Part shown: positions 55,045-60,113 of the stretch, one piece after another | Position numbering within the stretch: position 1 is the stretch's first letter | Layout: each line of letters starts with the position of its first letter | DNA from: Flavobacterium sp. HJ-32-4 | GTDB lineage: Bacteria > Bacteroidota > Bacteroidia > Flavobacteriales > Flavobacteriaceae | DNA: 64,000 nt | Direction of reading: 5' to 3' | Assembly (NCBI RefSeq): GCF_022532105.1 | Contig: NZ_CP092832.1 | Location: forward strand, 1,703,001 to 1,767,000 | Notes under the pieces: model-generated | Told to the model about the DNA's origin: nothing | Databases searched by the model: none | Seen by the model: the letters and a program-made list of their open reading frames with translations, nothing else | Translations under genes and position numbers: made by a program

Positions 55045-56088
55045 TTATGACCCGGACGCTGTTCCGGGTTTTTTTGTGGTTTTGTCATAGTGACCTGCCG
55101 CGTCCCGCAGCCTTTTCGCAATGCGCGACGCCAATAACCGCGGCGCCAACACCTTGACGTATTCCCCAAACGACAGGATTTCCTTCTCCAGTTCGAAATT
55201 CAAAACAACATCGATACGCACCAAAATACCGCCTTCCTGTTCGGCCAGCACCGTCTGTGAGTGGTGAAGGGGTTTCGTCAGTACGTAGGGTGCGTGGCGG
55301 GGGTGAAATTTCAGCAGCACTTTCTGCGCGCGGTCTTTCGGGCTCTTCGTCACACCAATCAGGTCGTCGTAATACCGTTCAAAATCCACGCCGTCGTATT
55401 CCACAAAAGGCTCTTTTGTCAACTCGTGGAACTCGATGATCCGATCCAGCGCCAGCGTCAGCATCGCGCCACCGCGCGGCGTGCAGATCAGGAACCAGCG
55501 ATTGCGGAACTCTTTCAGTAAATACGGATAATAGACCTTGCGTTGTGAGTCGAGCGCGCGAAACGATTTGTATTCGATCATTAACGGCGTCTTCGACAAA
55601 ATAGCCTGGTAGAGCCGGTTGATGTGTTCGAGGCCCTTCAGTTGCGCGTTGCTTTCAAACTGTATGTAGTTCCGGGACTGCCCGGTCGACTTGTTCACGT
55701 TATTCTCGAGTCGCGCTATCATATCGCTCATCTCCTCGAAATACTGAAAACCGTTCAGGTGCTTGAGCAGGCTGACGACCTCTTTCATCTTTTCGGTATC
55801 GGCGTGGCTTACGGGCGAATTGGTGATGCTGTACTGCTCGTCTTCGTAAAGGTAGAACTTCCGGTCGATCACGACAATCGGGGCATTGTACCCCAGCTTA
55901 TCGCTCCGCATCATCTGTATGTCGCCCTGTATCGTCCGGCGGCTCACACCACTCGAAATGCCTTCGTATTCGTACAGCGCGTCGGACACTTTCGCGATCA
56001 AATCCTCCAGCGTCCATTTTCGGAAACGGTTGCGCAGGCAGGCGTCGATGGTTTTATATCGTAACAGAGCGAGTTTGTTGGTAGCCAT
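55045..56088 (-). CDS. WYL-domain transcriptional regulator
   Basis: The start at 56088 gives MATNKLALLRYKTIDACLRN; the longer frame adds 20 unlikely residues. The 347-residue product has an N-terminal DeoR-type winged helix (about 10-80), a linker and a WYL domain ('HINRLYQAILSKTPLMIEYKSFRALDSQRKVYYPYLLKEFRNRWFLICTP' then 'RIIEFHELTKEPFVEYDGVDFERYYDDLIGV') with a C-terminal WCX extension. WYL proteins bind small nucleic-acid ligands and often control DNA- or RNA-related defence and repair genes (family knowledge). It is divergent from the TROVE gene. Its last codons overlap a terminator hairpin. Confidence 0.92.
   Translation of the reverse strand: MATNKLALLRYKTIDACLRNRFRKWTLEDLIAKVSDALYEYEGISSGVSRRTIQGDIQMMRSDKLGYNAPIVVIDRKFYLYEDEQYSITNSPVSHADTEKMKEVVSLLKHLNGFQYFEEMSDMIARLENNVNKSTGQSRNYIQFESNAQLKGLEHINRLYQAILSKTPLMIEYKSFRALDSQRKVYYPYLLKEFRNRWFLICTPRGGAMLTLALDRIIEFHELTKEPFVEYDGVDFERYYDDLIGVTKSPKDRAQKVLLKFHPRHAPYVLTKPLHHSQTVLAEQEGGILVRIDVVLNFELEKEILSFGEYVKVLAPRLLASRIAKRLRDAAGHYDKTTKKPGTASGS
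55048..55077 (+). terminator. Terminator hairpin inside the WYL 3' end
   Basis: ACCCGGA, CGCTGT, TCCGGGT then TTTTTT on the + strand. It would stop reads from the E2-tail side. It overlaps codons for the last residues of the WYL protein (KPGTASGS). Confidence 0.7.
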
Positions 56089-56412: not shown

Positions 56413-56431
56413 TACGCAGTCTATTTGCGTA
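56413..56431. promoter_or_regulatory. Inverted repeat TACGCA-N7-TGCGTA, candidate operator 1
   Basis: Perfect 6-bp inverted repeat with a 7-bp spacer in the WYL/TROVE divergent gap. A near copy lies at 56524-56542. No other protein-binding site is known here, so this is a candidate for the WYL regulator. Confidence 0.5.
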
Positions 56432-56523: not shown

Positions 56524-56542
56524 TGCGCAAATGCAATGCGTA
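56524..56542. promoter_or_regulatory. Inverted repeat TGCGCA-N7-TGCGTA, candidate operator 2
   Basis: Differs from operator 1 in one position of the left half and has the same 7-bp spacer. It lies about 10 bp before CATCTTTG (56549-56556), a possible -7 box for the TROVE transcript. Confidence 0.5.
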
Positions 56543-56604: not shown

Positions 56605-58125
56605 ATGAAATTCAATTTACGTATCCGTAAGACAACGCAGGTCGTCAACCATGAAAAAGCAAAAGCCTATGTGATGACGCCTGAAACCGAACTGTATGCC
56701 GCTGTCGCTACTGCCGGACTCAGCGATATGTTCTATGAATCGACCGATAAACGGCTCGAGCGCATCGTCGCCCTGATCGCCCAATGTAGCCCCGAATTCG
56801 TTGCGAAGCTTGCCGTGTATGTACGTACCGAAATGCACCTGCGATCCGTACCTGCCGTACTCGCCGTAACGCTGGCGAAACAGCAATCGGGTAATGCCAT
56901 TGTGGGTGCCGCTGTGGCCGGAGTCGTTCGGCGTGCCGATGAAATCACCGAGTTGCTCGCCGTATACCAGCTACTGAATGGCCGTACGGGTGCCAAAAAG
57001 TTGGGCGCACTTTCAAAACAGGTACAGAAAGGTCTGTCGGTCGCATTCAACCGCTTCGACGAATATCAGTTCGCCAAGTATAACCGCGACACCGAAATAA
57101 AACTCCGCGACGCGCTCTTCCTCGTGCATCCAAAAGCGAAGAACGAAAACCAGCAGGTCGTTTTTGATAAAATAGCCAGCAAGTCACTCAGCGTACCCTA
57201 TACATGGGAAACAGAATTGTCGAAACTCGGGCAGGTGGATTTTGCCAGCAACGGCGAAAAAAATAAGGCGTTCACACAGAAGTGGGAAGAACTCATCGAT
57301 GCCAGCGCTTTAGGCTATATGGCGTTGCTCCGCAACCTGCGTAACATCGCCGAAGCCAACGTTTCCCGAAAACACATCGCGAAAGTCTGTGACGTGCTGT
57401 CGGACCAGGATCAGGTAGCGAAATCCAAGCAGTTACCGTTTCGCTTCCTGGCCGCGTACCGCGAGGTTAAAGTGTTGAAATCGCCCTATGTCGCATCATT
57501 GTTGACGGCTATAGAAGAGGCTGTCATGCACAGCGCGCAGAATATAAAAGGTTTCGGTTTCGACACCTCGCTTGTTATCGCCTGCGATGTTTCGGGTTCG
57601 ATGCAGCAACCGGTTTCCAAGAGAAGCAAAGTGATGCTTTACGACATCGGGTTGATGCTCGCCATGCTCCTGCAATCACGCTGCAAGGTCGTAACGGCCG
57701 GAATGTTCGGCGACCGCTGGAAAGAAATCAACGTCTCACGACGCAACGTCCTGTCGAATGTCGAAGCATTCTATCGACGCGAAGGCGAGGTGGGCTACGC
57801 GACCAACGGTCATCTGGTCATCGAATCGCTGATTGCCCGCCGACGTATCGTCGATAAGGTGATGCTGTTCACCGACGTACAATTGTATGACAGCTCCGGC
57901 CATGGCAATTCGTTCGCCTCGTCCTGGGCACGATATAAGAAAATCGCCCCGGAGGCAAAAGTCTATGTATTCGACCTGGCAGGCTACGGCCAGATGCCGC
58001 TGGATGTCCGCCAGAACGATGTACACCTGATCGCAGGCTGGTCAGACAAGATCTTCGACGTACTCGATGCCATCGAAAACGGTGGATCGGCCGTCGAGAA
58101 GGTGATGGCTGTGCCATTGACCTAA
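56605..58125 (+). CDS. rsr: TROVE-domain RNA-binding protein (Ro60/Rsr-like)
   Basis: The start at 56605 gives MKFNLRIRKTTQVVNHEKA; an upstream in-frame ATG at 56536 falls in the putative operator. The 506-residue product has a TROVE HEAT-like ring at about 1-315 ('LYAAVATAGLSDMFYESTDKRLERIVALIAQCSPEFVAKLAVYVRTEMHLRSVPAVLAVTLA') and a C-terminal vWA domain with the MIDAS DVSGSM near residue 328. TROVE proteins bind Y RNAs and misfolded or 3'-ended RNA through a central hole. The downstream structured RNAs and rtcB fit a Ro-Y RNA-RtcB unit. Confidence 0.93.
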   Translation: MKFNLRIRKTTQVVNHEKAKAYVMTPETELYAAVATAGLSDMFYESTDKRLERIVALIAQCSPEFVAKLAVYVRTEMHLRSVPAVLAVTLAKQQSGNAIVGAAVAGVVRRADEITELLAVYQLLNGRTGAKKLGALSKQVQKGLSVAFNRFDEYQFAKYNRDTEIKLRDALFLVHPKAKNENQQVVFDKIASKSLSVPYTWETELSKLGQVDFASNGEKNKAFTQKWEELIDASALGYMALLRNLRNIAEANVSRKHIAKVCDVLSDQDQVAKSKQLPFRFLAAYREVKVLKSPYVASLLTAIEEAVMHSAQNIKGFGFDTSLVIACDVSGSMQQPVSKRSKVMLYDIGLMLAMLLQSRCKVVTAGMFGDRWKEINVSRRNVLSNVEAFYRREGEVGYATNGHLVIESLIARRRIVDKVMLFTDVQLYDSSGHGNSFASSWARYKKIAPEAKVYVFDLAGYGQMPLDVRQNDVHLIAGWSDKIFDVLDAIENGGSAVEKVMAVPLT

Positions 58126-58160: not shown

Positions 58161-58171
58161 TTCACGAAAAA

Positions 58172-58266
58172 AAGGTGCCGTAGCGCCGGGTTACTTCGTG
58201 GCCAACGCAGGTTCGAATCCTGCCATCGACGCGAGTCGATGAATGCCCGGTGCGCTTGTCGCCCTT
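58172..58266 (+). ncRNA. Y-RNA-like module 1 with permuted tRNA mimic
   Basis: Lower stem AAGG/CCTT (58172-58175, 58263-58266). Internal loop TGCCGTA opposite GCTTGTCGC. Upper stem GCGCCGGG/CCCGGTGC (58183-58190, 58246-58253, one G-U). TTACTTCG follows the 5' strand. Inside lie a T-arm, GCAGG-TTCGAAT-CCTGC (58207-58223), and a 7-bp stem CATCGAC/GTCGATG capped by GCGA (58224-58241). T-arm followed by a capped 7-bp acceptor-like stem is the arrangement of a permuted tRNA mimic. Ends are my estimate from the pairing. Confidence 0.85.
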
Positions 58267-58275
58267 ACCAATAAA

Positions 58276-58405
58276 TGCGTGTGCCGTAACGAAGGGTTAC
58301 TTCATTCCTTACTCTTGGGTCGCAGGTTCGAGTCCTGCCGCCGTGAGGCGTAGCTCAGCCGGTAGAGCAAAGAAAAAACAGTCCCTTTGTGTCTGTCGCC
58401 CCGCA
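58276..58405 (+). ncRNA. Y-RNA-like module 2 with permuted tRNA mimic
   Basis: Lower stem TGCGTG/CCCGCA (one mismatch). Internal loop TGCCGTA opposite GTCTGTCGC. Upper stem ACGAAGGG/CCCTTTGT (58289-58296, 58383-58390). TTACTTCA follows the 5' strand. T-arm GCAGG-TTCGAGT-CCTGC (58322-58338), acceptor-like CGCC/GGCG capped by GTGA (58339-58350), then TA and a canonical D-arm GCTC-AGCCGGTA-GAGC (58353-58368). The order T-arm, acceptor, D-arm is that of a tRNA cut in the anticodon loop, so the Y stem replaces the anticodon arm (inference). Confidence 0.88.
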
Positions 58406-58411
58406 CCACAT

Positions 58412-58542
58412 ACGGAATGCCGCAGAAAAGAGATACTTCGTCGTCAATTGAGGGAGGAATAGCGCAGTCGCCTTATGCGGCAAGGCTATCCGGTTCGACT
58501 CCGGCTTGACATGCCCCGCCTCTTTTCGATTGTCGCTTCCGT
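58412..58542 (+). ncRNA. Y-RNA-like module 3 with a tRNA-like insert in conventional order
   Basis: Lower stem ACGGAA/TTCCGT (6 bp). Internal loop TGCCGCA opposite GATTGTCGC. Upper stem GAAAAGAG/CTCTTTTC (58425-58432, 58520-58527, perfect). ATACTTCG follows the 5' strand. Within lie GTCAA/TTGAC (58443-58447, 58506-58510), a 5-bp stem with 7-nt loop GCCTT-ATGCGGC-AAGGC (58470-58486) and a T-arm CCGG-TTCGACT-CCGG (58490-58504). The T-arm is last, unlike modules 1 and 2. A TTTTT tract (58542-58546) could end the RNA. Confidence 0.82.
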
Positions 58543-58547
58543 TTTTC

Positions 58548-58612
58548 AAGAGTGCCGTAGGAAAGGATTACTTCGATCCACTCCAAATGTGCCTTTTCGT
58601 TTGTTGCCTCTT
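58548..58612 (+). ncRNA. Minimal Y-RNA-like module 4, no tRNA-like part
   Basis: Lower stem AAGAG/CTCTT. Internal loop TGCCGTA opposite GTTTGTTGC. Upper stem GGAAAGG/CCTTTTC (58560-58566, 58592-58598, one G-U). ATTACTTCG follows the 5' strand. The loop beyond is short, CATCCACTCC-like, with no T-arm. A T-rich tail follows. It is about 65 nt. Confidence 0.75.
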
Positions 58613-58634
58613 TTATTTAGATAAAACAGTAGCC

Positions 58635-58663
58635 GCCCTGCCGGAAGTCGTATCCGGCAGGGC
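58635..58663 (+). other. Perfect 11-bp hairpin between module 4 and rtcB
   Basis: GCCCTGCCGGA, loop AGTCGTA, TCCGGCAGGGC. It lacks a T-tract, so it is not a simple terminator. It may be a processing or stability element of the rtcB leader. Confidence 0.6.
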
Positions 58664-58694
58664 ATCGCGAGAGGAATTACTAACTTTACAAAAC

Positions 58695-60113
58695 ATGAAA
58701 ACACCTATTACAAAAGACCTTTTGGTCGAAGCGGGCTTCCCGAAAAAACTGGCGGGTCCCGCACTTTACCTGGTTTACCAACATATGACAGGCATGCCAT
58801 ATGAGGAAATAATGGGTCTGCTCAAAAAGCTGAACGAAAATCCGGCTGCCTTCGTTGACGAACCGATTATCGGTTCTCTCGCGACGCAAATCATGGCGTA
58901 CCAAGAAGAAATGAAAGACGTCGTTGCGCTGCGCGAAACAGTACCCGACTATGCTGTGTATGGAACTGAACATATTGAAGAAGGCGCCCACCGCCAAATG
59001 GAAGTGGCAATGCGTCTTCCGATCACGGCGGCCGGGGCGCTGATGCCCGATGCCCACCAAGGCTATGGTTTGCCCATCGGTGGCGTGCTGGCGACACGAA
59101 ACGCGATCATCCCCTATGGTGTGGGGGTGGATATCGGTTGCCGTATGGCGCTTTCCATCTATGATATACCGGAGAGCGATTTTGCGCTGCACAAGGCGAA
59201 GTACCAACGCGAACTAATCGCTCACACGCGATTCGGCGCCGGACACGGCTTCCACGGTTCGGAAAAAGCCAACCACGATGTGATGGATCACCAAGCGTTC
59301 AATCTTACACCGATGCTCCGTCACCTGAAGGATAGGGCGTGGTCACAACTCGGCACCTCGGGCGGGGGCAACCACTTCGTCGAATTCGGCGTCATCGAGT
59401 TCGCTGAAGCCGATGCAGTGCTCGGCGTGCCGAAGGGTCGGTATGTGGCACTTTTGACACATTCCGGGTCACGTGGGTTCGGGGCTACCATAGCCGGGCA
59501 CTATACTAAGGTGGCAAAAGCAAAAATGATACTACCGGCCGAGGCGGCTAACCTGGCCTGGCTCGACCTGCAGTCGCAGGAAGGGCAGGAGTACTGGATC
59601 GCCATGAACCTGGCCGGGGACTATGCCTCTGCCTGCCATGAGGTAATCCACCGTAAAATGGCGCACGCTATTGGGGCGACCGTGCTGGCGAAAGTAGAGA
59701 ACCACCACAACTTCGCCTGGAAAGAAATCTGGAATGGCGAAGAGGTGATCGTACACCGTAAAGGTGCTACACCCGCCGGAAAAGGCGTGATGGGTATCAT
59801 TCCAGGTTCCATGACCGCGCCGGGATTCCTCGTGAGGGGAAAAGGGGTAGACGCCTCGCTTCAGTCGGCTTCACACGGCGCGGGTCGCCAGATGAGCCGG
59901 ACCTTCGCCATCAAGAATATCAGCAAACAGCAGATGCGCGATGTGTTGAAGGAACACGGGGTGACGCTCATCGGTGCAGGCAAAGACGAAGCGCCGATGG
60001 CCTATAAAGATATCCATGCGGTAATGGAGGCGCAACGCGACCTGATAGAGGTGGTCGCTACGTTCCATCCGAAGATCGTCAGGATGGCCGACGACGGAAG
60101 TCGTGAAGATTAA
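58695..60113 (+). CDS. rtcB: RNA 3'-phosphate/5'-OH ligase RtcB
   Basis: The ATG at 58695 (MKTPITKDLLVEAGFP) is chosen because the open frame upstream crosses the fourth RNA module. The 472-residue product has 'MPDAHQGYGLPIGG' (D119, H121), the Mn-binding 'GVDIGCR' (D146, C149), 'GTSGGGNHFVEFG', 'ENHHNFAW' and the guanylylated His in 'SASHGAGRQMSR'. RtcB joins 2',3'-cyclic phosphate or 3'-phosphate to 5'-OH ends with GTP and Mn. No archease or RtcA is adjacent. It is the last gene of the Ro/RNA/RtcB unit. Confidence 0.96.
   Translation: MKTPITKDLLVEAGFPKKLAGPALYLVYQHMTGMPYEEIMGLLKKLNENPAAFVDEPIIGSLATQIMAYQEEMKDVVALRETVPDYAVYGTEHIEEGAHRQMEVAMRLPITAAGALMPDAHQGYGLPIGGVLATRNAIIPYGVGVDIGCRMALSIYDIPESDFALHKAKYQRELIAHTRFGAGHGFHGSEKANHDVMDHQAFNLTPMLRHLKDRAWSQLGTSGGGNHFVEFGVIEFAEADAVLGVPKGRYVALLTHSGSRGFGATIAGHYTKVAKAKMILPAEAANLAWLDLQSQEGQEYWIAMNLAGDYASACHEVIHRKMAHAIGATVLAKVENHHNFAWKEIWNGEEVIVHRKGATPAGKGVMGIIPGSMTAPGFLVRGKGVDASLQSASHGAGRQMSRTFAIKNISKQQMRDVLKEHGVTLIGAGKDEAPMAYKDIHAVMEAQRDLIEVVATFHPKIVRMADDGSRED

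Follow-up and report, generated by a model that had tools for sequence, protein, structure and literature searches.

The window analysed here, a 64,000-nucleotide stretch of the Flavobacterium sp. HJ-32-4 genome (contig NZ_CP092832.1, positions 1,703,001 to 1,767,000), holds a locus in which a Ro60/Rsr gene is followed by an array of four predicted Y RNA modules (M1 to M4) and by the gene for the RNA ligase RtcB, with a WYL/WCX transcription regulator encoded divergently from Ro (Table 1). The structure model of the Ro protein has a mean pLDDT of 75.5, and a Foldseek search made with it lists Ro60/Rsr/TROVE chains in each of its top 13 rows, including the D. radiodurans Rsr (2nvo). That is, the modules are encoded beside a Ro60/Rsr orthologue, as bacterial Y RNAs in the broad sense are. 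A PNPase gene is present in the genome. Of the RtcR-controlled rtcBA RNA-repair operon, the locus has rtcB; neither rtcA nor rtcR was found, as a search of the whole genome gave nothing for PF01137 or PF06956 (the E. coli control was positive). The hairpin between the array and rtcB was considered as a terminator of the array and rejected: in 15 relatives with rtcB nearby (4 further loci were skipped for a long gap), the longest perfect stem before rtcB measures 5-8 bp.

Table 1. Genes, predicted regulatory elements and RNA modules of the Ro locus, in window coordinates.
Feature	Position	Strand	Evidence
WYL/WCX transcription regulator gene, divergent from Ro	55045..56088	-	Pfam WCX 5.1e-13, WYL 7.8e-09
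Predicted operator palindrome 1, RCGCA-N7-TGCGY	56414..56430		Pattern search
Predicted operator palindrome 2, RCGCA-N7-TGCGY	56525..56541		Pattern search; 111 bp from palindrome 1
Ro60/Rsr gene (TROVE plus vWA with DVSGSM)	56605..58125	+	TROVE Pfam 2.7e-28, fold search
Predicted Y RNA module 1 (M1): Ro-type stems enclosing T arm and hairpin	58168..58270	+	Stem pairing; 45.6 bits with core model R1
Predicted Y RNA module 2 (M2): circularly permuted tRNA-like domain	58274..58407	+	Rfam YrlA E 3.4e-08; class A alignment
Predicted Y RNA module 3 (M3), class B: hairpin then T arm, native order	58410..58544	+	Class B model R2, 135.2 bits
Predicted Y RNA module 4 (M4): Ro-type stems, short loop, without insert domain	58545..58615	+	57.8 bits with core model R1
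12-bp hairpin between array and rtcB	58634..58664		GC-rich; terminator-like listing on minus strand only
rtcB RNA ligase gene	58695..60113	+	RtcB Pfam 2.3e-83

The sequence-only reading that preceded this analysis had placed four modules of one common plan between the Ro60 gene and rtcB, and all of its motifs and stems were recovered where it had located them: TGCCGTA lies at 58176, 58282 and 58553 and its variant TGCCGCA at 58418, (T)TACTTC lies at 58191, 58297, 58434 and 58568, and the 3' motif of M1 to M4 lies at 58254, 58391, 58530 and 58599, the spacers between successive modules being 3, 2 and 0 nt. The stem pairs that it listed are likewise all present, with the amendment that the M2 lower stem TGCGTG/CCCGCA carries one T-C mismatch. 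Pairing was found at 4, 5, 6 and 5 of the 6 tested positions of the lower stem in M1 to M4, respectively, and at 7 of 7 positions of the upper stem in each module. Its claim that pairing is kept despite the sequence differences also holds, since true partners within the array pair at 11-13 of 13 positions vs. 5-10 of 13 when partners are swapped among the four modules. Core model R1 and the head pattern (TGCCG[TC]-N7-11-TACTTC) show no second array in the 3.53-Mb genome: the model is empty elsewhere, and the 4 of the 8 head matches that lie outside the array lack a matching tail (scores 14.5-22 vs. 34-43). As finders, both tools were discarded, half of the 8 head matches in the genome being due to chance and R1 picking up only M1 and M4 within the window, i.e., missing the longer-insert modules M2 and M3.

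For the comparison with relatives, a profile search confirmed 405 Ro loci, the best 80 of which (named or MAG) were combined with 2 loci from a family search and the window into a set of 83 loci, in which close relatives are over-represented because the best 80 of the 405 were taken. At least one head is present at 80 of these 83 loci (best 80 of 405 plus 3), for a total of 192 heads, and for 142 of the 192 (118 distinct) a 3' partner could be chosen by its own motif alone, leaving 50 heads without a motif-chosen tail. With partners chosen in this way, 5.10 of 6 lower-stem positions are paired vs. 3.52 (sd 0.09) in shuffled controls, and 5.46 of 7 upper-stem positions vs. 4.00 (sd 0.08). In the core alignment (A2; the 63 divergent cores left of 121 after thinning at 80% identity), 78.9% of cells are paired vs. 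54.6% after shuffling, two-sided changes occur in 278 cells vs. 104, and the covariation score is 0.664 vs. 0.238 for shuffled and at most 0.217 for slid alignments. Counting how many pairs have at least one two-sided change does not separate real from shuffled alignments (16 of 16 vs. 15.4). RNAalifold added two invariant pairs inside the internal loop, G10-C49 and C11-G48. Hence, the modules share the conserved, covarying end stem and internal loop of bacterial Y RNAs in the broad sense, and the covariation, whose absence beyond the four modules would have spoken against the earlier reading, extends across Bacteroidota. Its identification of the locus as a Ro / Y RNA / RtcB system agrees with the TROVE and RtcB profile matches, the Ro60/Rsr fold, the YrlA match of M2, and the YrlA-like 3' strand and UAC of the modules.

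The modules also follow Ro across genomes. Sensitive scoring based on TACTTC, which was tried and set aside, gave values of at least 34 at 210 of 414 sites in the 3.6 kb after Ro vs. 7 of 666 elsewhere. The class B model (R2, the class of M3) has matches in 19 of 395 genomes of the phylum, and the Ro protein was found in 32 of 395 genomes (a draw matching the first in size and genome handles), the own genome being included in both counts; Ro is present in 18 of the 19 R2-match genomes (Fisher p 1.5e-21, again including the own genome), the one match without Ro being weak (G505, E 4.1e-4), and R2 finds nothing in 14 of the 32 genomes with Ro. At more than 100 bits, class B is found in 6 of the 395 genomes (own included). 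Within the family, Ro is patchy (3 of 397 genomes drawn, own included).

Several observations were made alongside. Three sampled loci (10 proteins) have RNA-repair genes near the Ro/Y RNA array, namely RlaP-type at L020 and L027, Hen1-type at L027, and an RLIG1-type RNA ligase at L044. On viral contigs, 10 of 57 Ro loci (e.g., L172, L173, L180 and L182) have at least one Y RNA module by score, with the modules preceding Ro at L172, L173 and L182, and Ro relatives are present in 95 named phage records. Further, matches to the Flavo-1 RNA (RF01705) adjoin two Ro loci (L042 7597-7679 and L006 5172-5271, minus strand).

What differs among the modules is the tip carried by the stems and, judging by sequence, at least two of the four tips in the window are imitations of tRNA parts. 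The sequence-only reading had noted the differing inserts but had not recognised this likeness to tRNA. After 17 of the 192 heads were dropped for scores below 28, 175 confident modules were sorted by pattern: 50 have a T arm but no D arm (class "T"), 44 are of the permuted tRNA type (class A), 18 belong to class B and 10 to class C, 5 are permuted with a D arm that we take to be tRNA-Ser-like (class G), 31 are short, and 17 fall under "other", the classes "T" and "other" being mixed bags. Class G was seen in Chryseobacterium (e.g., TGTGGTCGAGTGG; L034, L044, L055, L057 and L077). The M1 insert consists of a T arm (58207-58223), 20 of 20 bases of which are identical to the genome's own tRNA-Pro(TGG), followed directly by a 7-bp GCGA-capped hairpin (58224-58241); with 5 + 7 bp, like a tRNA acceptor/T arm, it resembles a permuted acceptor/T minihelix. 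Among 43 distinct T-only inserts, an adjoining hairpin (at most 2 nt from the T arm) reaches at least 6 bp in 24 and at least 5 bp in 29, with less or none in 14; this count leaves out 5 of 48 rows with a wrong T loop (stem 0-1 bp; L008, L017, L020, L024 at 369, and L081 at 516), and many of the hairpin-positive inserts come from close Chryseobacterium relatives.

M2 carries a fuller domain in circularly permuted order, i.e., T arm (58322-58338), acceptor stem with a GTGA loop (58339-58342/58347-58350) and D arm (58353-58368), together with the remnant of an anticodon stem (58313-58316/58370-58373). In the class A alignment that includes it (A5; 20 of 22 rows chosen from 39, with L040 and L068 left out by hand), 89.9% of the cells of 35 pairs are paired vs. 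at most 50.4% when slid, and every one of the 7 acceptor pairs shows two-sided changes, as do the 3 anticodon-stem pairs tested, although the third of these fails to pair in 9 of 17 rows; the D stem is invariant. When the tips were compared with tRNAs found in 30 of 44 tRNA loci, the closest identities were to tRNA-Pro (20 of 20 bases, and 23 of 25) and to tRNA-Phe (19 of 20).

M3 is built differently, with a hairpin (58459-58463/58485-58489) followed by a T arm (58490-58504) in native order, and its class recurs with compensatory changes: in the class B alignment (A3; 15 of 16 cluster members, L037 being left out as a near-twin of L032), 98.7% of the cells of 36 pairs are paired vs. at most 49.3% when slid, and 20 of the 36 pairs show two-sided changes. 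A candidate pseudoknot joins GUC (58440-58442) with GAC (58508-58510) and GGG (58452-58454) with CCC (58514-58516); such pairing of at least 3 bp is found in 25 of 25 cases, yet 60% of cross-class swaps also achieve it, and the pseudoknot suggested for classes B and C is tentative. Class C (10 rows) has a T-loop-like GGTGCAAATCC and two-sided changes in 18 of 30 predicted pairs. Rfam has no match to M3 up to E 5 nor, at a limit of E 0.5, to the class B modules at L014 and L006, and none to the one class C module searched (L028). An origin of M3 from a tRNA was considered and dropped, the best raw alignment score being 16 points.

Within loci, the classes are combined in a largely non-redundant manner. 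Among the loci with any confident module (73, from the best 80 of 405 plus 3), 52 have at least two, which means that an array is not special to this genome, and in 40 of these 52 multi-module loci all modules are of different class, the remaining 12 repeating a class (best 80 of 405 plus 3). Class repeats number 14 vs. 29.2 after shuffling, with a minimum of 16 in 5000 shuffles. The deficit persists when loci are thinned by Ro identity: at 90%, 24 of 33 loci are all-different and repeats are 11 vs. 21.3 (p 0.0006); at 80%, 18 of 22 and 5 vs. 13.7 (p 0.0004); and at 70%, 10 of 13 and 4 vs. 9.5 (p 0.004). A kit of different adaptors would be expected to show such non-redundancy; arrays made by recent tandem copying, or serving simple dosage, would not.

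The two palindromes in the promoter region of Ro are conserved. A divergent WYL relative is found at 40 of the 83 Ro loci (best 80 of 405 plus 3), and 38 of these 40 have at least one palindrome within 500 bp upstream of Ro (0.044 expected). Two palindromes are present at 17 of the 40, and in 15 of the 17 they are spaced 101-119 bp apart, a kept spacing that suggests looping by the WYL regulator. As a regulon finder, the operator motif was rejected; it has 30 sites genome-wide vs. 38 for a control pattern, and is therefore not enriched in the genome. At locus L081, a palindrome of the same kind (CTGCGCA-N7-TGCGCAG) lies between the last module and rtcB, suggesting a shared regulon.

Taken together, we consider it probable, with roughly two chances in three, that the modules are Y RNAs whose shared covarying plan is predicted to dock them on the Ro60 ring encoded next to them, each tip likely working as a separate adaptor or tRNA mimic. 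Counting against this reading are the YrlA match below the gathering score and confined to the tRNA-like part, the differing 5' strand on the Ro side, the Ro genomes in which R2 finds nothing, the 12 loci that repeat a class, and the presence of rtcB downstream in the same direction at only 27 of the 83 loci (best 80 of 405 plus 3). The most likely explanation of the locus as a whole is that the modules serve a single Ro ring as interchangeable Y RNA adaptors, within a WYL-controlled RNA-repair operon without RtcA and RtcR. With a common grip and four different tips, one ring could likely take different tools for damaged RNA. Under this model, a single Ro-array-rtcB transcript would be cut into the four RNAs, as we infer because the modules abut (0-3 nt apart), and the lower stem and the TGCCGUA/UUGUYGC internal loop would bind Ro and gate its ring, leaving the tips to bring in different partners. 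The permuted tRNA of M2 might attract proteins that handle tRNA, or PNPase, in the manner of known bacterial Ro particles; the M1 acceptor/T minihelix and the native-order T-arm domain of M3 could engage other T-loop or acceptor-end readers; and the bare M4 may serve for gating only. The divergent WYL protein likely controls transcription through the paired palindromes, thereby taking the role of RtcR. The furthest-reaching form of the proposal is that Bacteroidota Ro loci hold a tool-changing Y RNA kit for one Ro ring, with a common grip, with non-redundant half-tRNA, permuted tRNA, permuted tRNA-Ser look-alike and native-order pseudoknotted T-arm tips, the last of these outside any Rfam family, and with a WYL sensor that switches it on upon RNA damage; this we put forward tentatively, at somewhat less than even chances.

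Alternatively, the tRNA-like tips might be a portfolio of decoys that titrate away anticodon nucleases or other toxins directed at tRNA, with no partner being recruited and Ro only stabilising the RNAs. The close copying of tRNA parts described above would fit such a role, as would the tRNA-Ser-like D arm of the Chryseobacterium class (n=5) and the RNA-repair genes close by in three sampled loci, and the excerpts of PMC7790460 raise decoys as a possibility for YrlA. However, the permuted design lacks the anticodon loop, the usual target of such nucleases, a tip is absent from M4 and the rest of the short modules (31 of 175 altogether), and YrlA is, in the same excerpts, not a substrate of the nuclease studied; we regard the decoy hypothesis as unlikely. 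It is less likely still that M2 alone is a working Y RNA (a PNPase tether), with M1, M3 and M4 as degenerate copies of it. While no other well-defined class is as common as the M2 type (44 of 175) and M2 is the sole window module with an Rfam match, class B recurs with compensatory changes (beyond 100 bits in the six genomes noted above) and M4 has kept both stems (57.8 bits). That the modules are cis-acting leader or processing structures of the rtcB mRNA instead of free RNAs, as the position of the array directly upstream of rtcB in the window might indicate, appears very improbable given that rtcB has any match in the fetched DNA of only 29 of the 83 Ro loci and lies downstream in the same direction at 27, yet heads occur at 80 (best 80 of 405 plus 3), and that the modules precede Ro at the three viral contig loci mentioned above. 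Finally, decaying tRNA genes caught in a repeat would account for the tRNA-like arms, but we give this almost no credence, since neither ARAGORN nor the Rfam tRNA model calls a tRNA here and the permuted order with covarying acceptor stems in 20 divergent rows contradicts it.

Bacterial Y RNAs, their tRNA mimicry and the Ro-RtcB link are already known; Chen et al. 2014 are said to have found Y RNAs in over 250 species, with at least one per species being tRNA-like. No account of non-redundant Y RNA sets or of classes B and C was found in the literature searched, a search that fell short of the main papers, including Chen et al. 2014. To our knowledge, it is an open question in both animals and bacteria why a single Ro protein should have more than one Y RNA. 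The compact natural arrays represent sets of tips on one grip, in many natural combinations across genomes, and such combinations make the adaptor idea testable by tip swaps or deletions. Further, the several modes of tRNA imitation (permuted whole, half, and native-order T arm) amount to a natural experiment in the features of tRNA that Ro particles require, and the class B (M3 type) and related class C Y RNAs would be new RNA families for annotation.

Among known Y RNAs, YrlA (RF02553) is the closest reference point. Its Rfam model matches the M2 insert at model positions 23-87 with 42.8 bits, below the gathering score of 69, and there is no YrlA match to M1, M3 or M4 up to E 5. Full-length YrlA matches at two other Bacteroidota loci (L084 and L085) give a consensus in which the 5' strand reads GCGAAUGC, the 3' strand reads UUGUCGC, and the upper stem is followed by UAC. 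Only these two strong loci were used because weak matches can be adjoining ordinary tRNAs and controls also match: in a scan of 296 genomes, 84 have YrlA matches (above the cut-off in 1), as do 6 of 14 control genomes, and one weak match in the own genome (C1:1849393-1849513) overlaps two tRNAs. Compared by eye to this consensus, the window modules share the 3' strand (UGUCGC in M1-M3, UGUUGC in M4) and the UAC (in all four), although in relatives mostly only UUGC is kept of the former. In contrast, their 5' strand on the Ro side reads TGCCGYA and not GCGAAUGC, which is why the stems fall outside the YrlA match and the score stays below gathering. The stem grip thus looks like a sister form of the YrlA grip. 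The YrlA order of T arm, acceptor and D arm is found in M2 only, M1 having a T arm and acceptor-like hairpin, M3 the native order, and M4 none of these.

At the level of whole systems, the locus resembles the Salmonella rsr-yrlBA-rtcBA operon in its Ro neighbour, its outer and upper stems, and its permuted tRNA-like domain (class A/M2), and the Salmonella YrlA operon likewise comes with rtcB, according to the excerpts of PMC7790460. It differs in that three of its four modules lack the full YrlA domain, and in having a WYL regulator in place of RtcR and no RtcA. As described in excerpts of PMC7790460, PMC8394870 and PMC4726728, Y RNA attaches to bacterial Ro through its lower stem and can link Ro to PNPase, YrlA mimics tRNA and is modified by DusA and TruB, and tRNA fragments trigger the response of the Salmonella operon. 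The D. radiodurans system, with its Ro-Y RNA-PNPase particle RYPER (excerpts of PMC8394870 and PMC4726728), is similar in having a Ro ring with a Y RNA gene beside it, and a PNPase gene is present in the genome here as well; the Flavobacterium system differs by its predicted set of four RNAs with different tips. Vertebrates also have several Y RNAs for one Ro60 (hY1, hY3, hY4 and hY5 in human), with Ro binding through the lower stem and divergent loops (excerpts of PMC6340977 and PMC4726728). While the bacterial Y RNAs are called not homologous to these in the excerpts of PMC4726728, the present locus has the further distinction that all of its modules are encoded in one array.
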